DNA of 38,007 nucleotides, taken from contig CAMBAL010000020.1 in assembly GCA_945864225.1 (NCBI GenBank), forward strand, positions 1 to 38,007, written 5' to 3'. The notes below the pieces were generated by a model. The model searched no databases, was not told the DNA's origin, and was given only the letters and a program-made list of their open reading frames with translations. Position numbers and translations under genes: made by a program. Below are positions 8,239 through 26,079 of the stretch, piece by piece. This DNA is from an uncultured Blautia sp. GTDB taxonomy: Bacteria; Bacillota; Clostridia; Lachnospirales; Lachnospiraceae. Each line of letters begins with the position of its first letter. Within the stretch, counting starts at the first letter, position 1.

Positions 8239-8275
8239 TGTACTCATGAAACCAAAAATGAAAAGGAAGGTATGT

Positions 8276-9961: not shown

Positions 9962-9966
9962 TACAT

Positions 9967-10003
9967 AAGAGGATTGTCAGGAATATTGGCAATCCTCTTT
10001 GTT
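9967..10003 (+). terminator. Rho-independent terminator
   Basis: AAGAGGATTG pairs perfectly with CAATCCTCTT and runs into TTGTTATT, starting 6 bp after the stop codon. Confidence 0.85.
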
Positions 10004-10017
10004 ATTATGGATAATTC

Positions 10018-10089
10018 AGAGCGCGTTTGAAAGCTGCGTTGTATCGAATTGTGACGTGCATTAGTTGGAAAGCAATTTTTAATACGCTC
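10018..10089. repeat. Palindromic intergenic repeat, copy 2
   Basis: It begins AGAGCGCGTTTGAAAG and ends GGAAAGCAATTTTTAATACGCTC. The inner segment ATTGTGACGT is shared with copies at 14579 and 27499. The surrounding 338-bp gap also holds a terminator and a promoter. Confidence 0.75.
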
Positions 10090-10201
10090 AAATATTTAAC
10101 AGATCTGTTGGTATAAGCCGGTGTTATATACTTGAAAAACGGATATAAAAACGAACAATAACATAAATGTTACAAAATATTAAACTTTTAAAGATTTATG
10201 C

Positions 10202-10230
10202 TTGCATTCTTTGTAATCATGTGTTAATAT
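10202..10230 (+). promoter_or_regulatory. Promoter for the coiled-coil NlpC/P60 gene
   Basis: TTGCAT, 17-nt spacer, TAATAT. TGTAAT, TGTTAA and TGTAAA half-site-like hexamers overlap this region (10212-10235), but their spacing does not fit the WalR consensus exactly. Confidence 0.5.
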
Positions 10231-10299
10231 GTAAAAGAACTTGAAAAGAATATTTCGAAAATGTTACATAATAAACACGAAATTATGAGGGTGATAAAC

Positions 10300-11775
10300 A
10301 TGAAAAAAAGAGTTGTATGTTTGACATTAGCATTTATGATGAGCGCAGCACAGATTGTAAGCGTCAGTGCGGCCAGAGGAGAAGAGGAGATCATGGAAGA
10401 TCAGGCATGGACCTACTCACAGCTCCAGGATGCCAGCGCACAGCTTGATGCTACTTATGCTCAGATTGATAATTTATATTATGCGAAATCACAGCTTGAG
10501 AGCGAAATTGCGACTCTGGATGCGAACCTTGTAAACGTGATGGTTTCCATTCAGACTCTGGAAGGTGACATTTCCAATAAAGAAGCAGACATCGCTCAGA
10601 CCAAGGAGGATCTGGCCAAAGCTGAGAAGGCACGTGATAAACAGTACGAGGCTATGAAACAGCGTATCCAGTACCTTTACGAAAAAGGCGGCAGTGATGC
10701 ATGGTTTCAGATGATGATGAACGCAGACAACCTGTCAGACCTTCTGACCAAGGCTGAATATACACAGAAGATGTATGATTATGACAGAGAAAGCCTTGAG
10801 AAATATGCGAATACCATTGAGCAGGTTCAGCAGCTCAGTGACAGATATACACAGGAGAAGGCAGAACTGGAAGCCATGAAGCAGGAATACGAAGCAGAAT
10901 CTGTAAATCTGCAGAATATGATTGATCAGAAACAGGCAGAATCCGCAAATTGCGCAGATGAAATTGCTTACGCACAGCAGATGGCTACCGAGTATTCCAA
11001 TCTGATCGTAGAGTATCAGGCAGAGATCGAACGTCTGGAAGTTGAGAGAGCAGAAGCTGAGGCAGAGAGAATTGCTGCTGAGGAAGCTGCAAGGGCACAG
11101 GCTGAGGCAGAAGCAGCGGCTGCAGCTGCGGCAGAGTCCGATGAGACAGAAGCACAGAGTGATTATGAAGCTGAAACATTTTATGATGAAGACGGCGATC
11201 CTGTAGATCTTGCATATGCAGCAGCAAATGGAATTACCGTATATGATATCGACGGTGATGTACGTGATGCCAATTATCTCTTAGGTAATACGACATCTTC
11301 CGAGTCCGGAAGCTCTGAATCCGCAGACAGTGAGTCAGGCAGCTCCGAGAGCTATGATACCGATGAATATGGCAATGTGATCGACACTGCGAATACCGTA
11401 GATGCGTCTTCCTACACCAGCAGCGGATCCGGATCCGGATCTTCTGTAGTAGATTATGCGACACAGTTTGTTGGTAACCCATATGTGTGGGGCGGCACAA
11501 GTCTTACCAACGGTGCTGACTGTTCCGGTTTTGTACAGAGTGTATATGCAAACTTTGGGGTAAGCCTGCCGAGAACTTCTTATGAGCAGCAGAATGCCGG
11601 TTATGAAGTTTCTTATGCAGATGCACAGCCTGGTGACCTGATCTGCTATGGCGGACATGTTGCTATTTACATGGGTAACGGACAGATTGTTCATGCATCC
11701 AATTCCGTAGACGGAATTAAGATCAGCAATGATGCTACCTACAGAACCATTCTTTCTGTAAGACGTCTTGTATAA
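10300..11775 (+). CDS. Secreted coiled-coil NlpC/P60 endopeptidase (CwlO/PcsB-like)
   Basis: The 491-residue protein starts with a signal peptide ending near SVSAA. Residues about 30-245 form a long coiled coil (AQLDATYAQIDNLYYAKSQLE, ending in an Ala/Glu-rich helix of AEAEAAAAAA type). A Ser/Gly-rich linker follows (residues about 330-385). The C-terminal NlpC/P60 domain has Cys408 in ADCSGF, His453 in YGGHVAIYMG and His465 in IVHASN, the intact catalytic triad. This is the CwlO/PcsB arrangement: D,L-endopeptidases held inactive by the coiled coil and activated through FtsEX during growth or division. The ATG at 10300 follows GAGGGTGATAAAC. A terminator follows at 11800. The partner FtsEX is not in the window. 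Confidence 0.9.
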   Translation: MKKRVVCLTLAFMMSAAQIVSVSAARGEEEIMEDQAWTYSQLQDASAQLDATYAQIDNLYYAKSQLESEIATLDANLVNVMVSIQTLEGDISNKEADIAQTKEDLAKAEKARDKQYEAMKQRIQYLYEKGGSDAWFQMMMNADNLSDLLTKAEYTQKMYDYDRESLEKYANTIEQVQQLSDRYTQEKAELEAMKQEYEAESVNLQNMIDQKQAESANCADEIAYAQQMATEYSNLIVEYQAEIERLEVERAEAEAERIAAEEAARAQAEAEAAAAAAAESDETEAQSDYEAETFYDEDGDPVDLAYAAANGITVYDIDGDVRDANYLLGNTTSSESGSSESADSESGSSESYDTDEYGNVIDTANTVDASSYTSSGSGSGSSVVDYATQFVGNPYVWGGTSLTNGADCSGFVQSVYANFGVSLPRTSYEQQNAGYEVSYADAQPGDLICYGGHVAIYMGNGQIVHASNSVDGIKISNDATYRTILSVRRLV

Positions 11776-11799
11776 TAAGAGTCATATGATAAAATTTTC

Positions 11800-11830
11800 A
11801 GGAGCTATCCATAGCGGGTGGCTCCTTTTT
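11800..11830 (+). terminator. Rho-independent terminator
   Basis: AGGAGCTATCC pairs with GGGTGGCTCCT (one wobble) around ATAGC, followed by TTTTT. Confidence 0.82.
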
Positions 11831-12077
11831 AGTATCATAGGAAAGTGATTTGCATGATATTAAAAAGTCCTCAGGAATTGTACTGCAGCGGAAAGGAAAT
11901 ACATGGATGAAGCAATCCGCAGCAGGAGGTGAATCCTGCAAAAACAGAATCCTTTCGTGATTTTATCCCCCCGGGGGGCTTGTATGAAGAGGGGAAGGTT
12001 TTTATAATTGGCTGTGAAACAGGAGCATATCAGGCAGGGAACAGCCTGAATGATTTTGACTGAACGGAGAAGACGAA
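11831..12077 (+). other. Dyad-rich untranslated leader of the 825-residue fusion gene
   Basis: No credible gene lies here. Three inverted repeats stand out: GCAGGA/TCCTGC around GGTGAA near 11924-11941, the self-complementary CCCCCCGGGGGG at 11967-11978, and GGCTGT/ACAGCC bracketing about 25 nt near 12010-12050. This could be a structured regulatory RNA. It does not match any riboswitch consensus that I can recognise. Confidence 0.35.
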
Positions 12078-14555
12078 ATGAATTTAAAAGAAGAAATCCA
12101 TGAGTACTGGACCAGACGTGCGTCTGGTTATTCAGAATATAATCAGCAGGAAATGGGGGATGCCAGACGTTCCATGTGGAAAACGAAGCTCCTTGCACTT
12201 CTTACGGAAAATTTCCCGGGAAAAGAGCCGGCAGATATCAGGATACTGGATGTTGGAACCGGCCCAGGATTTTTTGCCATTCTGCTTGCAGAAGCAGGAT
12301 ATCAGGTGACTGCTGTGGACTATACCGAAGAAATGCTGAAAGAAGCCCGTCAGAATGCAGGAGAACTGGCAGAAAACATTTGCTGGATGGTGGGAGATGC
12401 ACAGAAGCTGGAACTGGATGAGGAAGATTTTGACGCAGTTGTGACGCGTAATGTTACCTGGAATCTGCCGGATCCGGCCAGGGCCTATCAGGAATGGTAC
12501 CGTGTACTGAAAAAAGATGGAATTTTATTGAATTTTGATGCGGACTGGTATGGACATCTGTTTGATGAACAGAAGAGAGAGGCCTATGAGGCAGATCGCC
12601 GGAATGTGGCAGACGAGCAGTTTGAAGATTATTATGGCGACACGGATAATGAGAAAATGGAGGAAATTGCCCGACAGGTCCCGTTAAGCCGTCTGAAAAG
12701 GCCGGAGTGGGATCTGAAAGCCATGAGTGAGGCCGGTTTTAATGAGGTGGATTGTGACAGAAATGTGTGGAAAGAAGTCTGGACAGAGGAAGAAATTGTG
12801 AATAACTCTTCCACACCTGTATTTTTATTGAAAGGCAGAAAAACGAATGGTATTTTCCGTCTGTGCGGGATGGAAGCGACTCCCGGAGAACGGGTCAGCG
12901 GTTTTCTGAAACTCGGAAATGGAGAATTCCAGCTGCCGGCAACGATTCTTCATGGAAAGAAACCGGGAAAAACCGCCCTGATCATGGCAGGTGTTCATGC
13001 CGGGGAATATGTGGGAATTCAGTCTGCAATCGAACTGTCTCAGAAATTGAAAACAGAAAAGGTAACAGGAACGGTCATTCTGGTCAAAGTGGTGAACCGC
13101 CCTGCTTTTGAGGCAAGAACCGGAAGTATGGGAAAAAGTGACCATAAGAATCTGAACCGTGTATTTCCGGGCAGAGCAGATGGAACAGAGATGGAACGTC
13201 TGGCGTATGCGATGGTTCAGGAATTGTATCCTTCGGCAGATTACTGTATTGATCTGCACAGCGGAGATGATTATGAGGAGCTGACTCCTTATGTATATTA
13301 TGCGGGAAAAGCATCACCGGAGGTGACAGCGATGTCCCGGCAGATGGCGGAACAGGTAGATGTTCCCTACATGGTAAAATCCAATGTGGAATCCGGGGGT
13401 GCCTATAATTATGCTGCCTCTGTGGGGATTCCCAGTATTCTGATCGAACGGGGCGGAATGGGAGACTGGAACAGTGAGGAGTCGCGTTCTACCAGACGTG
13501 ATGTACGCAATATTCTCTGTCACCTGGGAATTTATCAGGGAATGAAAGACTACCGCACGTATTATCCACTGGATGTGGCAGATGTGCGTTATCAGGATGC
13601 GTCTCAGGGAGGTCTTTGGTATCCGTATAAAAAGGCCGGTGATATTGTCCGCAGGGGGGAACTTCTTGGAGAAGTACGTGATTATGAGGGGAATGTGCTG
13701 GAAATCAGTACGGCAGAATATGATGGCGTGATTCTTTATCAGACCGGTTCCCTTCAGGTGCTGGAAGATGGTCCGATGGTTGCTTATGGAAGGATTGTCC
13801 GGGAACGGGACGAGCGGAAAGAAAGAATCGTGAAATACTGGGGAAAACGCAGTGAGAGCTTTCTTTCTCAGCGCCGTCAGGAGCTTCACAGTGCCATGGC
13901 AAAACGGTGGCTTGAGGAAATCCAGGGGCAGCTTTGTAAAGTGCATTCCAGAAGCCAGGAAGGCCCTCTGAAGATTCTTGACGTGGGATGCGGAACCGGA
14001 TTTTTTACGATTCTTCTGGCAAAACAGGGATATGAGGTTACAGGAACAGACCTGACTCCGGAAATGGTGGAAAACTCCAGAAAACTTGCCATGGAGGAGG
14101 GGATATCCTGTGAATTTCGTGAGATGGACGCCGAGCATCTGGCATTTCCAGAGGAAACATTTGATGTGGTGATTTCCAGAAATCTGACGTGGACACTGCC
14201 GGATGCTGCGCAGGCTTACCGGGAATGGTTCCGGGTATTGAAAAAGGGTGGAATCCTCCTGAATTTTGATGCAAATTATGGACTCAGTGATTTTGCAGAT
14301 ACCACCGGTCTTCCTGAGACCCATGCTCATCATACGGTCGGGGATGAGATGATGCGGGAATGTGAGGAAATTAAGAGACAGCTTCCAATCAGTTCCTACA
14401 GCCGTCCGGCCTGGGATCTGGAAACCCTGGGCAAAATGAAAATAGAAAAATTTGATATCGATCTTGGAATCAGTTCGAGAATTTATCTGGAGAAAGACGA
14501 GTTTTACAATCCGACGCCCATGTTTCGGATCTGTGCAGAAAAACCTCATGCGTAA
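12078..14555 (+). CDS. Methyltransferase - AstE/AspA-type zinc hydrolase - methyltransferase fusion
   Basis: The 825-residue protein has three parts. Residues 1-257 are a class I SAM methyltransferase (ILDVGTGPG at 56-64; RNVTWNLPDP and LLNFDADW). Residues about 258-575 are an M14-type hydrolase of the succinylglutamate desuccinylase/aspartoacylase group: zinc ligands His307 and Glu310 in GVHAGEY and His394 in DLHSG, catalytic-type Glu457 in ILIERGG, and a C-terminal beta domain. Residues about 578-825 are a second methyltransferase (ILDVGCGTG at 633-641; RNLTWTLPD, LLNFDAN), clearly related to the first. There is no signal peptide, so it acts in the cytoplasm. No ribosome-binding site lies at either junction, so it is a true fusion. 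The substrate is unknown. It is convergent with the cobalt operon; a small-molecule or metallophore-modifying role is conceivable but only from position. Confidence 0.88.
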   Translation: MNLKEEIHEYWTRRASGYSEYNQQEMGDARRSMWKTKLLALLTENFPGKEPADIRILDVGTGPGFFAILLAEAGYQVTAVDYTEEMLKEARQNAGELAENICWMVGDAQKLELDEEDFDAVVTRNVTWNLPDPARAYQEWYRVLKKDGILLNFDADWYGHLFDEQKREAYEADRRNVADEQFEDYYGDTDNEKMEEIARQVPLSRLKRPEWDLKAMSEAGFNEVDCDRNVWKEVWTEEEIVNNSSTPVFLLKGRKTNGIFRLCGMEATPGERVSGFLKLGNGEFQLPATILHGKKPGKTALIMAGVHAGEYVGIQSAIELSQKLKTEKVTGTVILVKVVNRPAFEARTGSMGKSDHKNLNRVFPGRADGTEMERLAYAMVQELYPSADYCIDLHSGDDYEELTPYVYYAGKASPEVTAMSRQMAEQVDVPYMVKSNVESGGAYNYAASVGIPSILIERGGMGDWNSEESRSTRRDVRNILCHLGIYQGMKDYRTYYPLDVADVRYQDASQGGLWYPYKKAGDIVRRGELLGEVRDYEGNVLEISTAEYDGVILYQTGSLQVLEDGPMVAYGRIVRERDERKERIVKYWGKRSESFLSQRRQELHSAMAKRWLEEIQGQLCKVHSRSQEGPLKILDVGCGTGFFTILLAKQGYEVTGTDLTPEMVENSRKLAMEEGISCEFREMDAEHLAFPEETFDVVISRNLTWTLPDAAQAYREWFRVLKKGGILLNFDANYGLSDFADTTGLPETHAHHTVGDEMMRECEEIKRQLPISSYSRPAWDLETLGKMKIEKFDIDLGISSRIYLEKDEFYNPTPMFRICAEKPHA

Positions 14556-14810: not shown

Positions 14811-16475
14811 TCATTGAATTGCTCTGAGATGATCTACAAATATTTTGCGGATTCCCGGATATTCGCCAAGACCCTTGATGACTGTTTCTGTGGAAAAACC
14901 GGCTGCTTTGAACTGGCTGTACCAGGACTGTGGATCATCTCCAGCCATATCATTCTTTGCGTGGTCTCCTGCCACGATCATGAAAGGAGCAAGAATCACT
15001 TTCTTTGGCTGATAGTTTCGAACCATTTTCATCAGAGTTTCCATAGAAGGATAGGCCTCTACGGTTCCAAGAAAAATATTGGGATATCCTTTGTCTTTAA
15101 AGGTATAATCCAGTGCTGCATAAATCGCGTTGGCATAATGCGTGGTTCCGTGTCCCATAAGAACCAGTGCTTCGTCTGACTTCAGATCTGAAAATTCTTC
15201 TGCAACTGCACGGATTACGTCAAGATTGTCCTGTTCTGTAGTAAGCAGAGGATCCCCAAATGAAATGGAATGGAAATCATCGCGATAGGCGAGAGCATCT
15301 TCTTTCATCAGATCATTTTCGATACCATTGATCACGTGGGTAGGCTGGATCAGAATGTCGGTGATTCCGTCTGCGCGCATCTGTTCCATGGCTTCTTTGA
15401 CAGTATTCACATGAATATTATCCCGGCTTTTCAGTTTGCGGATGATCATTTTACTGGTCCATGCACGGTAGAGTGCATAATCCGGAAATGCAGCCTGAAT
15501 ATCCTGTTCAATGGCATCAATGGTTACCTTTCTTGTATCCTCATGGCTTGTCCCGAAACTGACTGCCAGAATGGCCTTTTTGGCGTTTGTTGACATGGTA
15601 TTTTTTCCTCCGTAACATGGGTTTAGATGAATATCGGAAATATATTTTTCCAGTGTTTTTAAATTTCTGGGGAGCGGAAGTGAGGTTTTCAGAATCTGTT
15701 TCTGGCAGAGACTTTCGAAAAGCTCCAGAACCACCGGCGGCTCCAGATTCGTCTGTTTCAGTGCGGCGCGGTTGGAAAATACCTGCTCCGGTGTTCCGTG
15801 TATCAGAACTTTTCCCTCGTGAAACAGTACCACTTCGTCAGCCCATTCATAAGCGTAATTGACATCATGGGTGGCCATCATCACAGTAATTCCCTGTTCA
15901 GTCATCCGATTGACAATCTGATTTACCATGGTGGTATGTCTGGGATCCAGTGCAGCAGAAGGCTCGTCCAGAATAATGATATCCGGATGCATCACCAGGA
16001 TATCCGCAATGGAAACCTGTTTTTTCTGACCGCCGCTTAAGGCATGAGTAGGCTTGTGCCGGAAGGGTGTGATCTCCAGCGTATCGATGACTTCTTCCAC
16101 TTCCTGTCGGGCCTGTTCCTGTGGCACGCCGAGGTTCAGGATACCGAAAGAAATCTCCTGATAAACACTGGCAGAAAAAAGCTGATTGTCAGGATCCTGA
16201 AAAACGATTCCGATTTTACTTCGCAATTCCAGAAGATCTTTTTTGGAATAGGAGTATTCTTTTCCTTTGTAATAAAGTTTTCCTGACTGCGGGCGGCAGA
16301 TACCGGTGCAGCAGAGGAAAAAAGTGGATTTTCCGCTTCCGTTGGCACCCATAAAAGCAATTTTCTTTTTGCGGCGGATCTCCAGGGAAAGTCCGTTGAG
16401 AGAATGGGATGCATCGTCATCATAGGAAAAATACAGATTTTCTGCTTTCAGGATAACGTCGTCGTGTGTGTTCAT
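14811..16475 (-). CDS. cbiO-cbiK: CbiO-CbiK fused frame: cobalt ABC ATPase plus sirohydrochlorin cobaltochelatase
   Basis: One frame of 554 residues. Residues 1-293 are CbiO, the ATPase of the energy-coupling-factor cobalt importer: Walker A GANGSGKS (43-50), LSGGQ (146-150), Walker B IIILDEP, and the H-loop in MATHD. Residues 294-554 are CbiK, the anaerobic cobaltochelatase of early B12 synthesis: numbered from its own Met, His149 (MGHGTTH), Glu180 and His212 (DHAKNDMAGDD) correspond to the active-site residues of Salmonella CbiK. Each half has full normal length. No stop codon separates them, yet GGAGG at 15607-15611 precedes the cbiK ATG at 15596. The ATG at 16475 overlaps the cbiQ stop (ATGA) and has GGAGG at spacer 11; the ATG at 16493 overlaps that site. 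The product may be a fusion, a separate CbiK, or both. Confidence 0.88.
   Translation of the reverse strand: MNTHDDVILKAENLYFSYDDDASHSLNGLSLEIRRKKKIAFMGANGSGKSTFFLCCTGICRPQSGKLYYKGKEYSYSKKDLLELRSKIGIVFQDPDNQLFSASVYQEISFGILNLGVPQEQARQEVEEVIDTLEITPFRHKPTHALSGGQKKQVSIADILVMHPDIIILDEPSAALDPRHTTMVNQIVNRMTEQGITVMMATHDVNYAYEWADEVVLFHEGKVLIHGTPEQVFSNRAALKQTNLEPPVVLELFESLCQKQILKTSLPLPRNLKTLEKYISDIHLNPCYGGKNTMSTNAKKAILAVSFGTSHEDTRKVTIDAIEQDIQAAFPDYALYRAWTSKMIIRKLKSRDNIHVNTVKEAMEQMRADGITDILIQPTHVINGIENDLMKEDALAYRDDFHSISFGDPLLTTEQDNLDVIRAVAEEFSDLKSDEALVLMGHGTTHYANAIYAALDYTFKDKGYPNIFLGTVEAYPSMETLMKMVRNYQPKKVILAPFMIVAGDHAKNDMAGDDPQSWYSQFKAAGFSTETVIKGLGEYPGIRKIFVDHLRAIQ
15597..15612 (-). promoter_or_regulatory. 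Internal ribosome-binding site for cbiK
   Basis: GGAGG with a 10-nt spacer precedes an ATG at 15596-15594 inside the cbiO-cbiK frame. It would start a 261-residue CbiK of normal size, so independent translation is likely. Confidence 0.65.
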
Positions 16476-17248
16476 ATAAAAAATTTCCTCCATAGGGCAA
16501 ATAAAAACAAAGCCGTGTCAAATAAGATAATTGCCGCAACGATTTTTTTTCTGGGCGGACGGCTTTCTGACAGAACACGGATCGTTCCGTCATAACATCT
16601 GGCTTCCATGGCATCATACAATTTATTGGAGCGCTGTACTGCCCGGATCATCAGTGCAGAACCCAGCATTCCGAAAGACCGGATGGATGTTTTGTAGTCC
16701 CTGTTTCCGAGACGGCAGTTCTGTGAAGTAGTGAGTGCAGAAGCTGTGTCAAGCAGAACAAAGATGAAACGGTAGATCAGAAGCATCAGTTCAATCAGAA
16801 GTTTCGGACAGTGGAGTTTCCTTAAGACTTCCAGAATGTCAGGCATTGGTGTGGTAAAAGAAAGAAAGTACAGACAGGAAACGGAAGCCAGAGCTGTAAG
16901 AATCAGCTGAATGCCATAAAGCAGGGAATGCATATTTGTGGTGAAATACCAGCTGCCAAGAGGAACTGCAAACAGATCCATGGGGCTTCGCCGGATATGG
17001 AACATGACAGCGGCTGTACTGAGCAGCATAAATGCCAGAGGTACGGTCATATAGTGAAGGTATCTGGAAAAGGGAACGCTTCCCTTCCAGACGGTAAGAA
17101 TTCCCATAACCGGCAGTACGATACAGGCTACTGCAATAGAACGGCTGGCAACACAGATACAGAGTGTGGCTATGGAGAAAGCAAATTTTTCTCCGGCATT
17201 TTCATACTGGAGACCGGAACGGTAGCAGAGTTTATCGATTGTGATCAT
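16472..17248 (-). CDS. cbiQ: CbiQ, transmembrane T-component of the cobalt ECF transporter
   Basis: The 258-residue protein has several hydrophobic segments (SIATLCICVASRSIAVACIVL, FMLLSTAAVMF, LILTALASVSCLYFL) and the cytoplasmic coupling helices expected of EcfT/CbiQ proteins: the first near LEVLRKLHCPKLLIELMLLIYRF and the Ala-Arg-Gly-like segment replaced here by AMEARCYDG. It links CbiO to the CbiMN core in the membrane. Its start overlaps the cbiN stop by 4 bp, and its stop overlaps the cbiO start by 4 bp, so translation is tightly coupled. Confidence 0.88.
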   Translation of the reverse strand: MITIDKLCYRSGLQYENAGEKFAFSIATLCICVASRSIAVACIVLPVMGILTVWKGSVPFSRYLHYMTVPLAFMLLSTAAVMFHIRRSPMDLFAVPLGSWYFTTNMHSLLYGIQLILTALASVSCLYFLSFTTPMPDILEVLRKLHCPKLLIELMLLIYRFIFVLLDTASALTTSQNCRLGNRDYKTSIRSFGMLGSALMIRAVQRSNKLYDAMEARCYDGTIRVLSESRPPRKKIVAAIILFDTALFLFALWRKFFI

Positions 17249-17565
17249 GATTCGCTCCCATTCGGATTATCATCTTTCATCCATTTCTTCCGTTCTACAA
17301 AGCGCCCCATGAAAAAGGCAATGATTCCAACACCGATTCCCGTCTGGATGCAGAAGAAGAGACTTTCCACTTCCCCCGGAAGTTCTCTTCCCAGAAGCTT
17401 TTCCAGAACAGGGGCAGCCCATGGTTCATAGGAAGAATCGACTTCTTCTACAACCGTGCTGCCGGCATCGTCCGAACCGCCGAAATCGGCATCTTTTAAT
17501 ACAAATAAAGGAACAAGTGCAATCAGAAAAACAGCAATGACAGCAATGAAAACAGTTTTTTTCAT
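17245..17565 (-). CDS. cbiN: CbiN, small membrane subunit of the cobalt transporter
   Basis: The 106-residue protein has two transmembrane segments (MKKTVFIAVIAVFLIALVPL and FFCIQTGIGVGIIAFFMG) around an extracytoplasmic loop that contains SSYEPWAAP, a typical CbiN feature. CbiN helps load cobalt into CbiM. The ATG at 17565 starts 1 bp after the cbiM stop, and its ribosome-binding site (AAGGAGAA) lies in the last codons of cbiM. A longer frame beginning at 17637 would overlap cbiM and is rejected. Confidence 0.88.
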   Translation of the reverse strand: MKKTVFIAVIAVFLIALVPLFVLKDADFGGSDDAGSTVVEEVDSSYEPWAAPVLEKLLGRELPGEVESLFFCIQTGIGVGIIAFFMGRFVERKKWMKDDNPNGSES

Positions 17566-17566
17566 A

Positions 17567-18313
17567 TTATTGATTCTCCTTAAAATATCCGACAGCCCTA
17601 AGCTCCGGTCTGGCATAGGATTCCAGTCCCATAACAATTACCATGGTAATGATTCCTTCGATTACTGCAAGAGGAATCTGGGTAGGTGCAAAAACAAGCA
17701 TAAATTTGCCCAAGGCAGCACCAAAGGTAGTATCTGTGTTGTGGGCAAGAGCCAGCTGGAAAGCGGTGATGCAATAGGTGAAAAGATCCCCGATGGCTGC
17801 AGCAAGAAAGACCGTTACTTTCCGGTTGAGCCGCGCTTTTTTGCAGAGAAGATAAATGCCGTAGGAGACAAAAGGACCTGCAATAGCCATGGAAAACGTG
17901 TTGGCACCGATGGTGGTCAGTCCGCCGTGAGCCAAAAGGATTGCCTGGAACAGCAATACGATCAGCCCAAGGATGGAAACAGCGGAAGGTCCGAAAAGAA
18001 TCGCACCAAGCCCGGTTCCTGTCATATGTGAGCAGCTTCCTGTCACAGAAGGAATCTTCAGTGAGGAAATCACAAAGATGAAGGCACCGGACATAGCAAG
18101 CAGAGTGATCAGATTCCGGTATTCATCCAATGTTTTTTTGATGGAAAGAAATCCTGCAAAAAGAAACGGGATGCATAATGTGCCCCATGCGATGCAGTAT
18201 CCTGCCGGAAGATAACCTTCCATAATGTGCATGGCGTTAGCTGTCCGGACGATTCCGAAAGAGAGGGACAGGATGCACAGAACAATCAGCAGTTGTTTTT
18301 GACGTTTATTCAT
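17567..18313 (-). CDS. cbiM: CbiM, substrate-specific component of the cobalt transporter
   Basis: The 248-residue membrane protein starts with a signal sequence that ends just before MHIMEGYLP, the invariant mature N-terminus of CbiM/NikM proteins, where the Met-His pair helps coordinate Co2+ or Ni2+. Further family marks are GSCSHMTGTGLGAILFGP and AHGGLTTIGANTFSMAIAGPF. It forms the metal path of the CbiMNQO importer. It is the first gene of the operon. The start at 18313 follows AAGGGAG. Expression is predicted to be repressed by cobalamin through the riboswitch and terminator upstream. Confidence 0.93.
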   Translation of the reverse strand: MNKRQKQLLIVLCILSLSFGIVRTANAMHIMEGYLPAGYCIAWGTLCIPFLFAGFLSIKKTLDEYRNLITLLAMSGAFIFVISSLKIPSVTGSCSHMTGTGLGAILFGPSAVSILGLIVLLFQAILLAHGGLTTIGANTFSMAIAGPFVSYGIYLLCKKARLNRKVTVFLAAAIGDLFTYCITAFQLALAHNTDTTFGAALGKFMLVFAPTQIPLAVIEGIITMVIVMGLESYARPELRAVGYFKENQ

Positions 18314-18332
18314 AGAAACTCCCTTCTGATGG

Positions 18333-18370
18333 CAAAAAAAATGCCTGCAGGGTTCTGGATCCCGACAGGC
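18333..18370 (-). terminator. Riboswitch-controlled terminator upstream of cbiM
   Basis: On the minus strand GCCTGTCGGG pairs with CCCTGCAGGC (two imperfect pairs) and is followed by eight T. It sits between the cobalamin aptamer and cbiM, so it is the likely expression platform. Confidence 0.8.
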
Positions 18371-18439
18371 TGCTAAAAGAACAGATACGGAATTTGTGAA
18401 TATGATTCAGAAGAAAGATATCATAAGCCAATCTGTTCT

Positions 18440-18625
18440 CACACAAGGCCATCGTTCGTAACCTGTGTAAATTCTGTATACAGGGCAGGTTTTCTGACTC
18501 GGGCATCCATGCTGCAGTCAGCCTTCCCGGATGATTCCAGTGGCATTGCAGACTGCGGCTCTTCCCATACAGCGGCGTGACCGTGTAAGCATTTCACTTA
18601 CTTCCCTTTTGCAGTTCCCTGTACG
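18440..18625 (-). promoter_or_regulatory. Cobalamin (B12) riboswitch
   Basis: Read on the minus strand it begins near ACAGGGAACTGC, contains the B12-box-like GCCACTGG (plus-strand 18537-18544), GGGAAGGC and the 3' conserved GATGCCCGAGTCAG followed by ACCTGCC. These are the hallmarks of the cobalamin riboswitch aptamer. It precedes a terminator and the cbiMNQOK operon. Boundaries are approximate. Confidence 0.92.
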
Positions 18626-18642
18626 TTTATTTTTCTTCATTA

Positions 18643-19851: not shown

Positions 19852-20784
19852 GTGAAACAAATGATTGATATAAAACAACTGAAATATTTTGAGGAATGTG
19901 CCAGGACGGAATCCTTCAGCAAAGCTGCGGAAGCATTGTATACGACACAGTCCAGTGTGAGCAAAGTAATCAAATCCATGGAAGATTCTCTGGGAATCCG
20001 TTTGTTTGAGCGGTACACAAGAGGAATCCGTCTGACCAGAGAAGGCGAACATGTCTATCAGTATGCGAAGACAGTGCTTGAAAATCTGGAGAAGATCGAA
20101 TCCTTTCAGGAACAAAAAGAAACCGAAGTGCTTTCTGTTTCCTGTAATCCCAGTTCCTGGTTTGCGGATATGTTTGTGAAATTTTATCAGATGCATCAGA
20201 AAGAAGACATCCATTATCAGATTTATTCTGCAAGCTGCCGGGAAATCGTGGATCGTGTCAGGGAGCGGATGGATGCTATGGGGTTTGTCTATATAATGAA
20301 AAACCAGCTTGCAGCTTTTCAGTATTTTCTTGGCAGAAATTATCTGGAATTCGAAATTCTGAAAACAACAGATATTATGCTGTATCCGGGAGCCGGACAT
20401 TCCTGCCGCAGAGAAGAAGGAGGCCGGGAAGTTTTTGACGGAATGAAACTGATCCAGCGCTTCCCTGACGAATTTTCTCCGGATAATTACTGGGATATTC
20501 TGGATCAGGACCAAAAATCTGCTGCAGATGCGGAAACGGTGATCACGACCAACAGTGATTATATTATGGAAAGAATTCTTCAAGTAAGTGATCTGGTAAA
20601 CATCAGCGGAGGATATCTTTCCGGGAAACCCTGGAGAAAATATACAAAGGATGTTCTGCTGCCCGGTAACGAAAATCAGGTATTGTTCGGCTGTGTGAAG
20701 AGGCAGAATGAGGAATTGTCCAACTGGGCAGAGGTATTTCTTGCTTTTCTGAAGGAAAGATTGCAAGATGGGGAAAACAAATAG
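19852..20784 (+). CDS. LysR-family transcriptional regulator
   Basis: About 310 residues. The N-terminal winged helix-turn-helix is typical of LysR proteins: IKQLKYFEECARTESFSKAAEALYTTQSSVSKVIKSMED.. then GIRLFERYTRGIRLTREGE (residues about 6-66), split here for length. The effector domain (about 95-300) is divergent. The GTG at 19852 has GAGG 5 nt upstream; an ATG at 19861 is the alternative. It lies directly upstream of, and in the same direction as, the Nik/Opp-type transporter, with a terminator between them. It is therefore a plausible regulator of that operon, but neither ligand nor target is shown by the sequence. Confidence 0.86.
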   Translation: MKQMIDIKQLKYFEECARTESFSKAAEALYTTQSSVSKVIKSMEDSLGIRLFERYTRGIRLTREGEHVYQYAKTVLENLEKIESFQEQKETEVLSVSCNPSSWFADMFVKFYQMHQKEDIHYQIYSASCREIVDRVRERMDAMGFVYIMKNQLAAFQYFLGRNYLEFEILKTTDIMLYPGAGHSCRREEGGREVFDGMKLIQRFPDEFSPDNYWDILDQDQKSAADAETVITTNSDYIMERILQVSDLVNISGGYLSGKPWRKYTKDVLLPGNENQVLFGCVKRQNEELSNWAEVFLAFLKERLQDGENK

Positions 20785-20880: not shown

Positions 20881-20920
20881 GCACGATAACCCCATAGAGG
20901 GGTTGTGGTGCTTTTTCTTT
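20881..20920 (+). terminator. Terminator between LysR gene and ABC operon
   Basis: GCACGATAACCCC pairs with GGGGTTGTGGTGC (one mismatch, one wobble) and is followed by TTTTTCTTT. Confidence 0.8.
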
Positions 20921-21048
20921 ACTGTTAAAATATAAACAATTAGATGAGATAGTACCCCATGTGCATGAAAAAGAAATCGTTCCTGTGAGCAGAGCAAACC
21001 GTAACAGGAAATGACGGGTGCATGGGGAAAGAAATACAGAGGATAATT

Positions 21049-21993
21049 ATGGGGAAATATTTGTTCAAAAGATTGCTGCAGCTGATTCCGGTTTTGCTTG
21101 GGATTACCTTTCTGTCTTTTGCCATGATGAGACTGGCAGGCGGAGATGCAGTGACCTATATGTATGAAAACGCCGGAGCGGCTGTTTCGCAGGAGATTAT
21201 TGATGAAACAAAAGCAGAATACGGACTGGATCAGCCATTTCTGGTGCAGTATATGAAATGGCTTGGCGGTATGCTGACAGGAGATATGGGAGAAAGTTAC
21301 GTATCCCACAGAGATGTTTTTGACATTTTTATTTCAAAACTTCCGGCTACGCTGCTGCTCACGGTTTCGTCTATTCTCCTGACGGTACTGATTGCGCTGC
21401 CGCTTGGGATTCTGTCAGCCGTGAGACAGAACAAATGGATAGATTATCTGATCCGGTTTTTCAGCTTTATCGGAAATTCCATGCCGAATTTTTTTGCCGC
21501 GCTTGTACTGATGTATTTTTTGTCAGTTCGCTGGAATCTGCTTCCTGTGGTCACGACCGATGATATGGCAAAGAGCCTGATTCTTCCGACACTGACCTTG
21601 GCGGTTTCTATGGTTTCCAAATATACCAGGCAGATCAGGGCAACGGTTCTGGAAGAACTGGACAAGGATTATGTGACCGGAGCCAGGGCAAGAGGAGTCA
21701 GGGGAAGTGTGATTATCTGGAAAAGTGTAATGAAGTCATCCATGCTGACGATTATTACACTTCTTGCGCTTTCTATTGGAAATCTGCTGGGTGGAACTGC
21801 CATTGTAGAAAATATTTTTATGTGGGACGGCGTTGGAAAGATGGCGGTAGATGCCATAAATATGCGGGACTATCCTGTGATCCAGGCATATGTTGAATGG
21901 ATGGCGATCATTTATGTACTGGTGAATCTGGTGACAGATATGATTTATCATTATCTGGATCCCCGTGTACGGCTGAGAGGTGAAAGCGCATGA
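21049..21993 (+). CDS. ABC transporter permease 1, NikB/OppB/DppB type
   Basis: The 314-residue membrane protein opens with YLFKRLLQLIPVLLGITFLSF, the usual first helix of this permease family, and has about six transmembrane segments. The ATPase-docking EAA-like loop reads DYVTGARARGVRGS near residues 205-218. Length equals that of E. coli NikB. An ATG at 21022 exists, but GAGGAT directly before the ATG at 21049 makes the latter the better start. It pairs with the next permease, whose start overlaps its stop (ATGA). Substrate: nickel, another metal complex, or a peptide. Confidence 0.88.
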   Translation: MGKYLFKRLLQLIPVLLGITFLSFAMMRLAGGDAVTYMYENAGAAVSQEIIDETKAEYGLDQPFLVQYMKWLGGMLTGDMGESYVSHRDVFDIFISKLPATLLLTVSSILLTVLIALPLGILSAVRQNKWIDYLIRFFSFIGNSMPNFFAALVLMYFLSVRWNLLPVVTTDDMAKSLILPTLTLAVSMVSKYTRQIRATVLEELDKDYVTGARARGVRGSVIIWKSVMKSSMLTIITLLALSIGNLLGGTAIVENIFMWDGVGKMAVDAINMRDYPVIQAYVEWMAIIYVLVNLVTDMIYHYLDPRVRLRGESA

Positions 21994-22862
21994 ATAAAGA
22001 GAAAAAAGTGACGATTCGCAGGCAAAAGCTCAGAAATAATCATATCAGAGGAAAATTACTGTTTTTTCTTGCGCTGGCGGTGCTGCTTCTGATGATTGCC
22101 GCGTTTGCTGAACGTCTTTGTCCCTATGATCCCTATGCGCAGAATCTGCTGGAAGCACAGCAGCCTCCCGGTATTTCTCATCCGCTGGGGACAGACCGCT
22201 ATGGGCGTGATATGCTCTCGCGGGTGATCATCGGAAGTACTGCCAGTATTTATGCAGCCCTTCTTCTGGTTGCCATCATTACTGTGGCGGGAACTGCTGT
22301 AGGAATGGTCTGTGGATGGTTCGGAGGAAAAGTGGATGCGCTTCTGATGCGTATTTCAGATATTTTCCTGGCATTTCCCGGTCTGGTATTTGCGTTGGCG
22401 GTTGCCGGAGTTCTGGGCGGCGGTGTGCAGAATGCCATGATTGCTCTGGGTGTGATCAGCTGGCCGAAATTTGCCCGGCTTGCCAGAAGTCTGACACTTG
22501 CACAGAAAGAATCGGATTATCTGATGGCAGCCAGGCTTGCCGGAAGCAGCACCCCGAAACTTCTGATCAGACATATCCTTCCCAATATTGCGGGACCGAT
22601 TCTGGTTACGTCGGTACTGGATATTGGAACCATGATCATGGAACTTGCCGGACTTTCCTTTCTGGGACTGGGAGTCAAGCCTCCGATGGCAGAATGGGGA
22701 AGTATGATCAGCGATGGACGGGTGATGCTTCAGACCGCACCATGGATGGTCCTTGCCCCCGGAGGTGCAATTTTTATTGCTGTTATGATTTTTAACCTGC
22801 TTGGTGACGCCATTCGTGATTACATGGATCCAAAGCAGAGAAACAGAGAACAATGCGAATAA
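21990..22862 (+). CDS. ABC transporter permease 2, NikC/OppC/DppC type
   Basis: The 290-residue protein begins with a basic cytoplasmic segment and a first transmembrane helix (LLFFLALAVLLLMIAAFAE). HPLGTDRYGRDMLSRVIIG is the family signature of NikC/DppC/OppC proteins, and SDYLMAARLAGSS is the EAA-like docking loop. GLSFLGLGVKPPMAEWGSMI near residue 225 is also typical. It forms a heterodimeric channel with the preceding permease. Its start overlaps the previous stop by 4 bp, and the binding protein follows after 21 bp, so all five genes are probably one operon. Confidence 0.88.
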   Translation: MNKEKKVTIRRQKLRNNHIRGKLLFFLALAVLLLMIAAFAERLCPYDPYAQNLLEAQQPPGISHPLGTDRYGRDMLSRVIIGSTASIYAALLLVAIITVAGTAVGMVCGWFGGKVDALLMRISDIFLAFPGLVFALAVAGVLGGGVQNAMIALGVISWPKFARLARSLTLAQKESDYLMAARLAGSSTPKLLIRHILPNIAGPILVTSVLDIGTMIMELAGLSFLGLGVKPPMAEWGSMISDGRVMLQTAPWMVLAPGGAIFIAVMIFNLLGDAIRDYMDPKQRNREQCE

Positions 22863-22883: not shown

Positions 22884-24437
22884 ATGAAAAAGAAAATTCT
22901 TGCAGCATGTCTTATGTGTGTGATGACTGTTTCCATGACCGCATTTCCGGTTCAGGCCGAGGATGAGAAATCTTTCGTTTACGGTACCACCGGTTATGGT
23001 GTGGAAATGGGAGATGAAGGATTGAATCCGCATAATAATTACTCCGGATGGAGTGCCCTGCGCTATGGAGTGGGGGAAACTCTTTTTCGGTATAATGACA
23101 ATATGGAGATTGAACCGTGGCTGGCAACAGATTATGAATTTGTGGATGATACAACGGTAAAGATCACGCTCCGGGATGGGGTGCAGTTTTCCAGCGGGCG
23201 TACCATGGATGCAGAGGCAGTGAAAGAATGTCTGGATCATCTTCTTGCTGTTCATGACAGGGCACCGTCCGATATGAAAATCGACCATATTGATGCGGAC
23301 GGAATGACGGTTACGATTTATACAACGGAACCATGTCCGGCAATTATCAATTATCTGGGCGACCCCTATGGCGCGATCATTGATATGGATTACGGTGTGG
23401 ACGGAGTGGAAGGGACGACCACAGGAACTGCCAATGTAGCCGGAACCGGTCCGTATATTGCAGTGAATGTCACAGAAACGCAGATCGATCTTGTGAAGAA
23501 CGAAAATTACTGGGGCAAAGAAGCAAACGTAGACAAAGTGACTGTCAAAACCTTCAGTGATGCCAGCTCTCTTGCAGCGGCTCTTCAGACAGGAGATATA
23601 CAGGGAACTTACGGGCTTTCCTATGACAGCTATGCATTATTTGAAAATAACCCGGATTATACCATTCATTCCTGCGCGACAAGCAGGTGCTTTTTCGGAC
23701 AGTTTCATTATGAGTCTGAGATCATGCAGGAGGAAGCGGTGCGTAAAGCCGTGTGTATGGGAATTGATAAAGAAGGATTCTGCGCTGTTCTGATGGAAGG
23801 AAGGGGAATTCCGGCAAAAGCGGCATTTCCAGACAGTTTTAGTTATGGAAATGAGGCAGTGACAGCACCGGAATATGATCCGGAAGGAGCCAGAGCGCTT
23901 CTCGAGGAAGCCGGATGGTCGGATTCAGATGATGACGGATATCTGGATAAAAACGGCCAGAAGCTGAAAATCCGCTGGCTGACGTATCCTGGGCGTCTGG
24001 AACAGCCGAAGCTTGCAGAATATGCGCAGGCAACACTGAAAGAAATTGGTATCGAAGTGGATGTAAACTGTACACAGGATCATCTGAGTGTGCTGGAAAC
24101 AGGGGCTTATGATGTGTACGTCAGTTCGCTGACGACTGCTCCCACGGGAGATCCGGAATACTTTTTTGCAGGCACATGCCTGGAAAATTCTGCCAAAAAC
24201 CGATCTCATCATAAGATTGAGGAAGTAGAAACTCTGTTTGAGCAGCTTCATCAGGAGTTTGACCAGGAGAAGAGAGGAGAACTGGCTGTACAGATGCAGC
24301 AGGCTATTCTGGATGAAAGTGCCATGTTCTTTGTATCTCATCTGAATATGGGAATTGTGACAAAATCCAATGTGACCGGTATGGCGGCTCATCCATGCGA
24401 TTATTACGAAATTACAGCAGAATTGAATGTGGAATAA
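22884..24437 (+). CDS. Substrate-binding protein, SBP_bac_5 (NikA/OppA) family
   Basis: The 517-residue protein has a signal sequence (MKKKILAACLMCVMTVSMTAFPVQA, cleavage near residue 26, written here as a range: residues 1-25). An LAAC tetrapeptide occurs at 6-9 but is too close to the N-terminus for a classical lipobox, so anchoring is uncertain. The family signature appears as LFRYNDNMEIEPWLATDYEF and DGVQFSSGRTMDAEAV. GTGPYIAV and NENYWGK are also family landmarks. It captures the substrate outside the cell for the two permeases. The start follows AAAAGGAGAAACCAGACG. NikA-like nickel or metal-chelate binding is suggested by similarity in length and by the cobalt genes nearby, but peptide transport cannot be excluded. 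Confidence 0.86.
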   Translation: MKKKILAACLMCVMTVSMTAFPVQAEDEKSFVYGTTGYGVEMGDEGLNPHNNYSGWSALRYGVGETLFRYNDNMEIEPWLATDYEFVDDTTVKITLRDGVQFSSGRTMDAEAVKECLDHLLAVHDRAPSDMKIDHIDADGMTVTIYTTEPCPAIINYLGDPYGAIIDMDYGVDGVEGTTTGTANVAGTGPYIAVNVTETQIDLVKNENYWGKEANVDKVTVKTFSDASSLAAALQTGDIQGTYGLSYDSYALFENNPDYTIHSCATSRCFFGQFHYESEIMQEEAVRKAVCMGIDKEGFCAVLMEGRGIPAKAAFPDSFSYGNEAVTAPEYDPEGARALLEEAGWSDSDDDGYLDKNGQKLKIRWLTYPGRLEQPKLAEYAQATLKEIGIEVDVNCTQDHLSVLETGAYDVYVSSLTTAPTGDPEYFFAGTCLENSAKNRSHHKIEEVETLFEQLHQEFDQEKRGELAVQMQQAILDESAMFFVSHLNMGIVTKSNVTGMAAHPCDYYEITAELNVE

Positions 24438-24521: not shown

Positions 24522-25328
24522 GTGATGGAACCATTACTGCGCGCAGAGAATGTTACGGTATGCTATAACGGAAAGCCTGTGGTTGAGGATGTGAGTTTTG
24601 AACTGCAAAAAGGAGAGATTCTTGGTGTGGTAGGGGAGTCCGGCAGCGGCAAAAGTACTGTGATGAAAGCGGTTATGGGGCTTCTGGGCAGAGACGGACT
24701 GGTGACCCGGGGTGATATTTATTATAAAGGAAACAATGTAACAGACATGCCGGAGAAGAAGCGAAGAAAACTTCGGGGGCCTGAGATGGGAATGGTATTT
24801 CAGGACTGCAGGGCAGCCCTGTGTCCTATAAGGAAGGTGGGTGTGCAGATCTACGAGTGTCTTGCAGAGCATGAGAAGATTACAAAAGCGGAAGCATTCC
24901 GTCGGGCAGAATTTCTGATGAAAAAAATCGGTCTGGAAGATGCGGAGAGAATCCTGAACAGTTATCCGTTTGAGTTGTCCGGAGGTATGAATCAGCGGAT
25001 TGGAATCTGTACAGCCATGCTGATGAATCCTTCGCTGCTTCTGGCTGATGAACCGACCAGCGCTCTGGATGTGACAGTGCAGAAACGGGTGATGGAGGAA
25101 TTGCTGCAGATGCGCAGGGAATACGGAACCGCTATGATTCTGGTTACTCATAACATCGGTCTGGCATCTGCCATGGCTGATCAGATACTGGTGATGAAAA
25201 GCGGGAAAATGATGGATTATGGTCCGACGGACTATGTTCTGCATCATTCGGATAATCCGTATACACGTAATCTGATGAATTCCGTGATGCATTTGAACCG
25301 TGTAAAAGTGGGAGAAGACGATGACTGA
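24522..25328 (+). CDS. ABC transporter ATPase 1, NikD/DppD/OppD type
   Basis: About 268 residues with Walker A GESGSGKST (near residue 36), the Q-loop in MVFQDC, ABC signature LSGGMNQR and Walker [13 protein letters not shown], followed by the switch His in VTHNIG. AAGGAG at 24508-24513 serves either GTG 24522 (spacer 8) or the adjacent ATG 24525 (spacer 11). It lacks the long C-terminal oligopeptide-type extension with conserved cysteines seen in OppD, which fits the shorter NikD length. Its end overlaps the next ATPase by 8 bp. Confidence 0.88.
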   Translation: MMEPLLRAENVTVCYNGKPVVEDVSFELQKGEILGVVGESGSGKSTVMKAVMGLLGRDGLVTRGDIYYKGNNVTDMPEKKRRKLRGPEMGMVFQDCRAALCPIRKVGVQIYECLAEHEKITKAEAFRRAEFLMKKIGLEDAERILNSYPFELSGGMNQRIGICTAMLMNPSLLLADEPTSALDVTVQKRVMEELLQMRREYGTAMILVTHNIGLASAMADQILVMKSGKMMDYGPTDYVLHHSDNPYTRNLMNSVMHLNRVKVGEDDD

Positions 25329-26079
25329 AATATTACTGGAGGCAGAACATTTAAAAAAGATTTTTCTTTCCGGAAAAACATCCCTGACTGCAGTGGATGA
25401 TGTGAGTTTTTCCCTCAGAGAGGGAGAGTGCCTTGGAATCGTAGGGGAATCCGGTTCCGGAAAGAGTACCATAGCGAGACTGCTCACGCGCCTTCTGGAG
25501 CCAACAGAGGGGAAAATCCGGCTTCTTGGTGAAGATATCACGCACATGTCCGGAAAAAAACTGCGCAGCGTTTATCAGAAAATGCAGATGGTTTTTCAGA
25601 TGCCGGCGGAGTCTTTTGATCCACGCCGTACGCTGGGGAACGGAATCGGGGAAAGTCTCAGAAATATGGGAATCAGCAGAAAAGAAACAGGGAAAAAAGT
25701 GGAGGAGCTGCTTGTACTGTGCGGACTTACTCCGGAATATGCCGGACGTTATCCCCATGAAATCAGCGGCGGTGAGTGTCAGAGGGCTGCAATCGCCAGA
25801 GCACTGGCTGTGGATCCGCTGCTTCTGATCTGCGATGAAGCGACAAGTGCTCTGGATGTAACAGTGCAGAAGCAGATACTGGAATTGCTGACAGAACTAA
25901 AAGAAAAAAAGAAGCTTTCGTTTGTGTTTATCTGCCACGATCTTGCACTCGTACAGCGGTTCTGCGACCGGGTACTGGTGATGCATCAGGGAAAAGTGGA
26001 AGAAACCGGAACTCCGGATGAAATCATCAATCATCCGAAGAGGGAGTATACAAAAATATTGATTGATTCTGTATTATAG
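25321..26079 (+). CDS. ABC transporter ATPase 2, NikE/DppF/OppF type
   Basis: The 252-residue partner ATPase has Walker A GESGSGKST (near 42), Q-loop MVFQMP, signature ISGGECQR, Walker B LLICDEATSALD and the switch His in ICHDLALV. The usual Pro after the Walker B Glu is Ala here, a tolerated variant. QMPAESFDPRRTLG is the family motif for the F-type subunit. It is the last gene of the importer operon; a remnant of the palindromic repeat and a promoter-sized gap follow. Confidence 0.88.
   Translation: MTEILLEAEHLKKIFLSGKTSLTAVDDVSFSLREGECLGIVGESGSGKSTIARLLTRLLEPTEGKIRLLGEDITHMSGKKLRSVYQKMQMVFQMPAESFDPRRTLGNGIGESLRNMGISRKETGKKVEELLVLCGLTPEYAGRYPHEISGGECQRAAIARALAVDPLLLICDEATSALDVTVQKQILELLTELKEKKKLSFVFICHDLALVQRFCDRVLVMHQGKVEETGTPDEIINHPKREYTKILIDSVL

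Follow-up and report, generated by a model that had tools for sequence, protein, structure and literature searches.

We analyzed a 38,007-nucleotide stretch of DNA (the window; contig CAMBAL010000020.1) from an uncultured Blautia sp. of the family Lachnospiraceae. It encodes an 825-residue fusion protein in which two class I S-adenosylmethionine (SAM) methyltransferase (MTase) domains flank a zinc amidohydrolase domain of the AstE/AspA type (MTase 1-AspA-MTase 2). Genes for this enzyme and its relatives recur beside nickel-type (Nik) importer operons, and they share with other uptake operons a promoter element whose presence in genomes goes together with that of a candidate metal sensor of the CsoR/RcnR family. 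We regard the element as new and rank the regulon, which comprises the element, the candidate sensor, and uptake operons including the enzyme, as the most valuable result of the analysis. We give about an even chance to a model in which the fusion supplies the enzymatic activity of a module that acquires nickel (or nickel/cobalt), making or processing a small metal ligand that is handled by the Nik importer. Individual loci and genomes are cited below by L and G numbers.

Linkage to nickel importer genes

The Nik operon of the window (Table 1) is a conserved neighbor of fusion-type enzymes. NikA-type importers were found in 27/40 related 20-kb loci, compared with 1/40 control regions (Fisher p 3e-10), and relatives of the LysR-family regulator were found in 9/40 related loci and 0/40 controls. 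The related loci were the first 40 fetched of 59 core places. Control regions came from enzyme-bearing genomes; 31 were randomly drawn (one was shortened), and 9 were set by hand against overlap or as fill-up. Neighborhood labels came from BLAST comparisons to the window's own genes, with open reading frames (ORFs) called by a simple longest-ORF script.

An earlier note on this DNA had described CbiMNQO/CbiK cobalt genes and a Nik/Opp-type importer as the context of the fusion and had named repeated linkage to cobalt/nickel genes as a sign in favor of a metal-related role. The importer counts provide that linkage, and the shared element and candidate sensor add to it. The importer half of the proposed context is thus conserved, whereas the CbiMNQO/CbiK half is a local neighbor: linkage to CbiK and to CbiM/Q (3/40 loci each versus 0/40 controls) was not significant. 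We place the CbiM-N-Q-O/K genes outside the conserved unit, since they are encoded on the other strand, have a riboswitch of their own, and are absent from most mapped loci.

The solved proteins closest to the window's substrate-binding protein (SBP) are nickel-binding proteins. Ten SBPs of related loci had Opp5A_nikA (nine) or nikA (one) as their best model, and the sole one of the ten above a nickel cutoff, the nikA case (TIGR02294, 602.3 bits), belongs to L077, an AspA-only locus. Three such loci (L061, L077, and L082) have a NikA-type importer alongside and no MTase match within 20 kb.

A shared promoter element

Alignment of the regions upstream of fusion genes revealed a conserved block, ATCCCCCnnGGGGGCTTG, followed by TATAAT. 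If transcription starts about seven bases past the -10 box, the center of the element (Table 1) would lie near -42. The segment CCCCCnnGGGGG has two short G/C tracts, as do type 2 CsoR/RcnR operators.

The window contains one match to the element, compared with 0.14 expected. At ≤2 mismatches and within about 350 bp upstream, the element precedes 34/86 MTase/AspA ORFs and 2/969 other ORFs; the same test gave 5/51 for SBP, 7/51 for NikB, and 2/3 for CbiM genes. The element was discovered in the fusion loci themselves, and a recount, done by hand without the discovery loci and one duplicate locus, gave 22/70 MTase/AspA ORFs versus 2/969 others (p 1e-25). In 250 family genomes, which are a draw from a larger group, 61 sites with ≤1 mismatch occur in 40 genomes, compared with 2 sites for the reversed pattern. 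A -10-like hexamer (at least 4/6 matching) stands at a fixed offset in 68/99 distinct sites, versus 10% at other offsets.

Forty regions around sites with ≤1 mismatch were mapped, and 39 lay apart from the loci already analyzed. The next downstream gene or operon was of the cbiM type in ten and of the SBP5/nik type in about fourteen; the remaining sites head other genes, for example, FecCD-type transport genes with an MTase (L172), and some precede genes with no evident metal role, such as those for LUD-domain proteins (L203) and ApbE (L190). In the window's own genome, the fusion gene has the sole site with <3 mismatches, and four more places match at 3 (reversed pattern, 1). The CbiM gene of the window has no element copy (6 mismatches at best), and exact text searches of the window with two patterns of the NikR type and two of the Fur type gave no match. 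Relatives with both the enzymes and the element include Lactonifactor longoviformis DSM 17459 (L042) and Blautia sp. XA-2221 (L036). Among the 29 loci L251-L279, the element was found at ≤2 mismatches in 5, two overlapping (L256 and L278) and 2 non-family (L262 and L268); these few hits outside the family suggest that control by the element is centered on the window's family.

A candidate metal sensor

A CsoR/RcnR-family protein is the candidate sensor for the element. The copy in the window's own genome (L212; G000:C80:6440-6820) matches PF02583 at 96.1 bits (cutoff, 22.8), and its relatives, a group defined solely by E ≤ 1e-22 to this copy, occur in 68/250 genomes: 34/40 with the element and 34/210 without it (p 4e-17; the genome lists were copied by hand). 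All genomes with an AspA-MTase fusion (11/11) have a sensor relative. The wider family follows the same trend, with 63 PF02583 genes in 24 of the 40 element genomes and 23 in 24 of the 210 genomes without the element, and PF02583 genes lie beside the element itself in L173, L177, and L198.

A His-rich N terminus is present in 14/15 sensor proteins read (the exception is L203). The own copy has the motif C-x24-H-x3-C, which is not in all relatives (it is missing, for example, from L173 and L203). According to PMC7055735, the metal ligands of InrS and CsoR have this same spacing, and InrS binds upstream of nik in Synechocystis and enhances its expression. A P-loop NTPase of one family, NUBPL/Mrp-type in the own copy, follows the sensor gene in the own genome and in five others. 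A second PF02583 paralogue of the own genome (L214; G000:C15:20347-20589 [-]) has no His-rich N terminus and has a 3-mismatch element just downstream; its contig also carries two cobalamin riboswitches.

Some sensor genes are associated with lar genes. The only PF02583 protein found in G230 is the C-terminal part of a LarC nickel-insertion protein, with a His-rich linking stretch (L062, 16494-17744 [-]), and the gene for this LarC-sensor fusion adjoins larB, a larE-like gene (so named by sequence, with PP-loop-type matches only in Pfam), and MTase 2. The sensor gene of G139 comes after larB and larC, and the window's own genome has larC on another contig. These neighbors could be accounted for if the enzyme modified a nickel cofactor, be it the nickel-pincer nucleotide or another; we consider this decidedly improbable, given that lar genes were found in 3 searched loci only (L062, L129, and L185), that the frequent partner is the importer, and that some enzyme operons are under cobalamin riboswitches.

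Domains and gene packaging of the enzyme

The fusion gene is an uninterrupted frame from ATG to stop. In the earlier note, the protein was read as one 825-residue frame with two related MTases around a zinc hydrolase, and the ORF, the Pfam matches, and the identity between MTase 1 and MTase 2 (37% over 254 residues) agree. Its SAM loops (residues 56-64, ILDVGTGPG, and 633-641, ILDVGCGTG) and zinc-site residues (His307 and Glu310 of HxxE, His394, and Glu457) are all in the sequence as that note had them. Residues of this kind act as zinc ligands and catalytic Glu in AspA domains. Pfam matched Methyltransf_11 in two stretches (183 bits in all; cutoff, 21.2) and AstE_AspA_cat (PF24827) at residues 296-482 (101 bits; gathering cutoff, 25). 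The SAM loops and zinc-site residues named above are invariant across nine aligned sequences, the window protein and eight fused homologues that are 61-87% identical. From these domains, the fusion is predicted to have deacylase and methyltransferase activities.

By both sequence and fold, the AspA domain is nearest to bacterial EutE/DoeB-type enzymes. The best fold matches were glycine/sarcosine N-methyltransferase for MTase 1 and CouO/UbiG-type enzymes for MTase 2. The AlphaFold model of the fusion has a mean predicted local distance difference test score of 78.9 and a predicted template modeling score of 0.43, and because of the latter we used the domain folds alone and took no domain arrangement from the model. 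The DoeB equivalog cutoff was not reached (TIGR02994, 116.5 versus 402.7 bits); NCBIfam matched 80 models, and the 25 best all stayed below their cutoffs. An aminocarboxypropyl-transferase (nicotianamine-like) identity was considered and found no support, as the listed PDB matches of the MTase domains included none of that kind. The own genome has a single copy of the fusion, its sole further match covering 71 residues at 37% identity. The earlier note knew of no described enzyme with this three-part layout, and literature searches in a library that lacks most subscription papers, together with passages of PMC7055735, PMC3902906, PMC3766115, and PMC4285132, likewise gave no description of the MTase-AspA-MTase architecture or of the promoter element.

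The same enzymes are packaged in several ways. Among 13 related loci from the named genome collection, the triple is in one frame in 8, split into a separate MTase 1 gene and then an AspA-MTase 2 fusion in 4 (L033, L037, L040, and L042), and cut by a contig end in 1. Matches at E ≤ 1e-20 were found in 44/250 family genomes, in which the genes occur as triple fusions, as MTase plus AspA-MTase, as MTase-MTase fusions (L057 and L058), and as separate neighbors (L056); many related loci lack AspA. In the class-level set, 22/291 genomes have matches, 4 of them from the window's family (own genome included) and 18 from other families. A tree of 83 MTase domains separates fused MTase 1 from fused MTase 2 copies by a branch with support of 100/99, and one MTase of each kind is often kept without the triple fusion, as in the two MTase-MTase fusions and in nine loci with two separate MTase genes (L056, L062, L065, L067, L068, L069, L074, L075, and L079). 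The triple fusion is therefore just one arrangement of a standing enzyme pair, which AspA may or may not accompany. In L055 (G102:C1:1438847-1441030), the enzyme genes have a second copy, which is broken and adjoins a Nik operon.

The split form in some close relatives might be taken to mean that the fusion is an assembly artefact, which the earlier note had named as a way for its idea to fail, or that the genes are chance neighbors. We give this next to no credence: the single frame recurs in independent genomes, and the importer linkage and the element enrichment outside the discovery loci both argue against it. The three-part layout is therefore real; the fusion is not essential, since the enzymes also occur separately or as partial fusions.

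Cobalt genes and cobalamin riboswitches

Cobalamin riboswitches lie within 12 kb of 6/59 core places, the window included (1.2 expected, p 0.001; the positions of riboswitches and core places were copied by hand). A riboswitch stands before a Nik operon in G223 and G148, and in both this operon continues into the enzyme genes; the G148 run has two ATP-binding cassette (ABC) half-exporters at its end. A riboswitch in G121 stands before a gene for a CbiK that has an apparent signal peptide; two MTases and the Nik genes come next. The promoter element is also found directly before an MTase gene in G223 and G121. The same enzymes are thus found with control of both the nickel type and the cobalt type, which speaks for a role shared by the two metals, in providing a ligand or processing one. 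The riboswitches, together with CbiK in the window and at 3/40 loci, would also fit a cobalt or corrinoid pathway, with a tetrapyrrole or corrinoid, passed on by CbiK, as the substrate of the MTases; we attach very little weight to this possibility.

Several cobalt gene fusions and variants were also seen. The CbiO ATPase and CbiK cobaltochelatase of the window form one 560-residue frame (14811-16493 [-]), and L032 has the same fusion. L070 encodes a CbiK with an apparent signal peptide downstream of a cobalamin riboswitch (10817-12010 [-]), and L074 encodes a fusion of porphobilinogen deaminase (HemC) and CbiK, 3' of NikE (16738-18462 [+]).

Proposed model and alternatives

We postulate that, when metal is short, a metal-free CsoR/RcnR-family protein would sit on CCCCCnnGGGGG, just upstream of the -35 box, and switch the promoter on, much as InrS does at Synechocystis nik; once metal bound, the sensor would leave the DNA and the gene would fall silent. 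Metal binding usually releases CsoR-family proteins from DNA. Simple repression would turn uptake on when metal is plentiful, a contradiction that activation by the apo form would remove. The AspA domain would take an acyl group off an amino-acid-like precursor, and MTase 1 and MTase 2 would add methyl groups to the product in two steps or at two sites, with nitrogen as the probable acceptor. The resulting small ligand would carry nickel or cobalt and be handled by the neighboring Nik-type importer, and in some relatives an adjacent MATE or ABC exporter may send it out. The best fold matches, to EutE/DoeB and, in the case of MTase 1, to an amino-acid N-methyltransferase, also count in favor of this model. 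A bolder version, that these genes represent a new class of nickel/cobalt metallophore pathway of gut Lachnospiraceae, built from a deacylase and two methyltransferases without nonribosomal peptide synthetase or opine chemistry and activated by an apo-CsoR/RcnR protein, is offered tentatively and may well prove wrong.

Several observations weigh against the acquisition model. By the same BLAST-label test, the importer is absent from 13/40 related loci, and the window's SBP falls below the cutoffs of the nickel equivalogs (Opp5A_nikA NF045468, 315.5/600 bits; nikA TIGR02294, 202.3/393 bits). At ≤2 mismatches, the element is absent for 52/86 core ORFs, some of which are second genes of operons. 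The sensor relative is below the cutoff or missing in 14/44 enzyme-bearing genomes, and six element genomes have none at the cutoff, one of these (G230) having the LarC-fused copy at E 1e-20. The C-x24-H-x3-C motif also occurs in copper sensors and makes no distinction between nickel and copper. In PMC3902906, type 2 operators are described as two G/C tracts, 2-4 bases apart, with a flanking AT-rich inverted repeat; the flanks of our element, AT and CTTG, form no clear repeat of this kind, and we therefore call the element CsoR/RcnR-like and do not file it as a type 2 operator. MATE exporters are not enriched at the 20-kb scale (4/40 loci versus 3/40 controls); no MATE relative was found in the window, and ABC-exporter probes matched only its importer-type ATPases. 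Finally, the same gene context would be expected if the enzyme altered a ligand that had been imported.

This last reading is the strongest rival to the model, since no MATE relative was found in the window and exporter linkage is by direct adjacency only. The enzyme could act after import, hydrolyzing and methylating an incoming histidine-like or peptide-like metal ligand so that the metal is released and rebinding is blocked; siderophore hydrolases release iron in a comparable way. Importer linkage, the element, and the hydrolase domain are as expected from such a role, and the AspA-only loci beside NikA-type importers also speak for it. We nevertheless judge it unlikely, as two conserved methylation domains exceed what mere release requires and as exporter genes adjoin MTase or AspA genes in L056, L060, L077, and L125. 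MATE genes directly beside system genes numbered 8/101, compared with 17/1580 elsewhere; because the four MATE probes were taken from L035, L056, L060, and L077, the adjacent hits at L056, L060, and L077 (three of the eight) are not independent.

Another alternative starts from the SBP. N-acyl amino acids are substrates of AspA-type enzymes, and peptides are a frequent cargo of SBP5 importers; the module might therefore scavenge either kind of compound by way of an Opp-type importer, its metal control reflecting the metal need of the enzymes, and the missed nickel cutoffs of the window's SBP agree with this. The nickel-binding nature of the closest solved SBPs, the element sites before cbiM-type operons, and the cobalamin riboswitches that head some operons point away from it, and we think it improbable.

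Other features of the window and related loci

Directly 5' of the fusion gene, positions 8246-11775 (+) encode a choline-binding-repeat protein and an NlpC/P60 protein, which among the mapped loci were labeled only in L032 and L033. Related lipoprotein-like genes with no Pfam match at E 1e-6 lie beside NikE in L060 (1478-2704 [+], 409 residues) and L064 (914-2185 [-], 424 residues).

Table 1. Features of the window, in order of position
Feature	Position	Strand	Basis
Promoter element ATCCCCCCGGGGGGCTTG, candidate CsoR/RcnR-type operator; last three bases start the -35 box	11965..11982	+	Aligned upstream regions, scans
-35 box TTGTAT	11980..11985	+	Read from sequence, 17-bp spacer
-10 box TATAAT	12003..12008	+	Read from sequence
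Fusion protein MTase 1-AspA-MTase 2, 825 residues	12078..14555	+	ORF, Pfam, alignment, residue readout
MTase domain 1, predicted class I SAM methyltransferase, residues 1-257	12078..12848	+	Pfam, PDB matches, fold search
AstE/AspA zinc amidohydrolase domain, residues 263-576, nearest solved fold EutE/DoeB	12864..13805	+	Pfam, PDB matches, fold search
MTase domain 2, predicted class I SAM methyltransferase, residues 577-825	13806..14552	+	Pfam, PDB matches, fold search
Cobalt operon CbiM, CbiN, CbiQ, fused CbiO-CbiK; not of the conserved unit	14811..18313	-	Pfam, NCBIfam
Cobalamin riboswitch ahead of the CbiM operon	18467..18636	-	Rfam RF00174, 83.2 bits, cutoff 31.5
LysR-family regulator next to importer	19852..20784	+	PF00126
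Weak element copy (4 mismatches) ahead of the Nik operon/NikB	20888..20905	+	Mismatch scan
NikB-type permease	21022..21993	+	PF00528
NikC-type permease	21990..22862	+	PF00528
SBP_bac_5 substrate-binding protein, closest to Opp5A/NikA nickel-binding proteins, below curated cutoffs	22884..24437	+	Pfam, NCBIfam, PDB matches
NikD/CntD/CntF-like ATPase; no equivalog cutoff reached among matches listed	24522..25328	+	NCBIfam
Second importer ATPase, NikE by position	25321..26079	+	PF00005

Significance and comparison with known systems

Acetogenesis, hydrogenases, LarA-type enzymes, and B12 depend on the supply of nickel or cobalt. The analysis gives methyltransferases and AspA-like enzymes of gut bacteria that had no assigned function a testable role in this supply, and it supplies a defined promoter element together with a candidate sensor and a set of operons, all open to testing. 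Should the small molecule be a ligand that is secreted, a new chemical class would take part in the competition for metals in the gut.

The importer side of the system resembles NikABCDE/Opp5 and the Cnt importers that work with the opine metallophores staphylopine and pseudopaline, in that the transporter family is the same and enzymes, partly also exporters, are encoded beside the importer. Unlike in the opine systems, the enzymes at the related loci are MTases and AspA. Staph_opine_DH (PF10100) had no match in 16 genomes and equally none in 14 control genomes, so this search had no positive control. For the middle domain, the nearest AstE/AspA relative is EutE/DoeB (N-acetyl-2,4-diaminobutyrate deacetylase, PDB 6twm), from which the fusion differs in that its AspA domain sits between two MTases and in nickel/cobalt loci. 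The flanking domains differ from class I SAM methyltransferases of the Methyltransf_11 family in forming two paralogous groups that are paired in many loci. The candidate sensor is like InrS, RcnR, and CsoR in its PF02583 match above the cutoff and in an element with two G/C tracts, and InrS also acts upstream of a nik operon. In contrast to those regulators, the proteins described here mostly have a His-rich N terminus, one copy is fused to LarC, and the element abuts the -35 box, has no clear AT-rich inverted repeat, and has uptake genes downstream.

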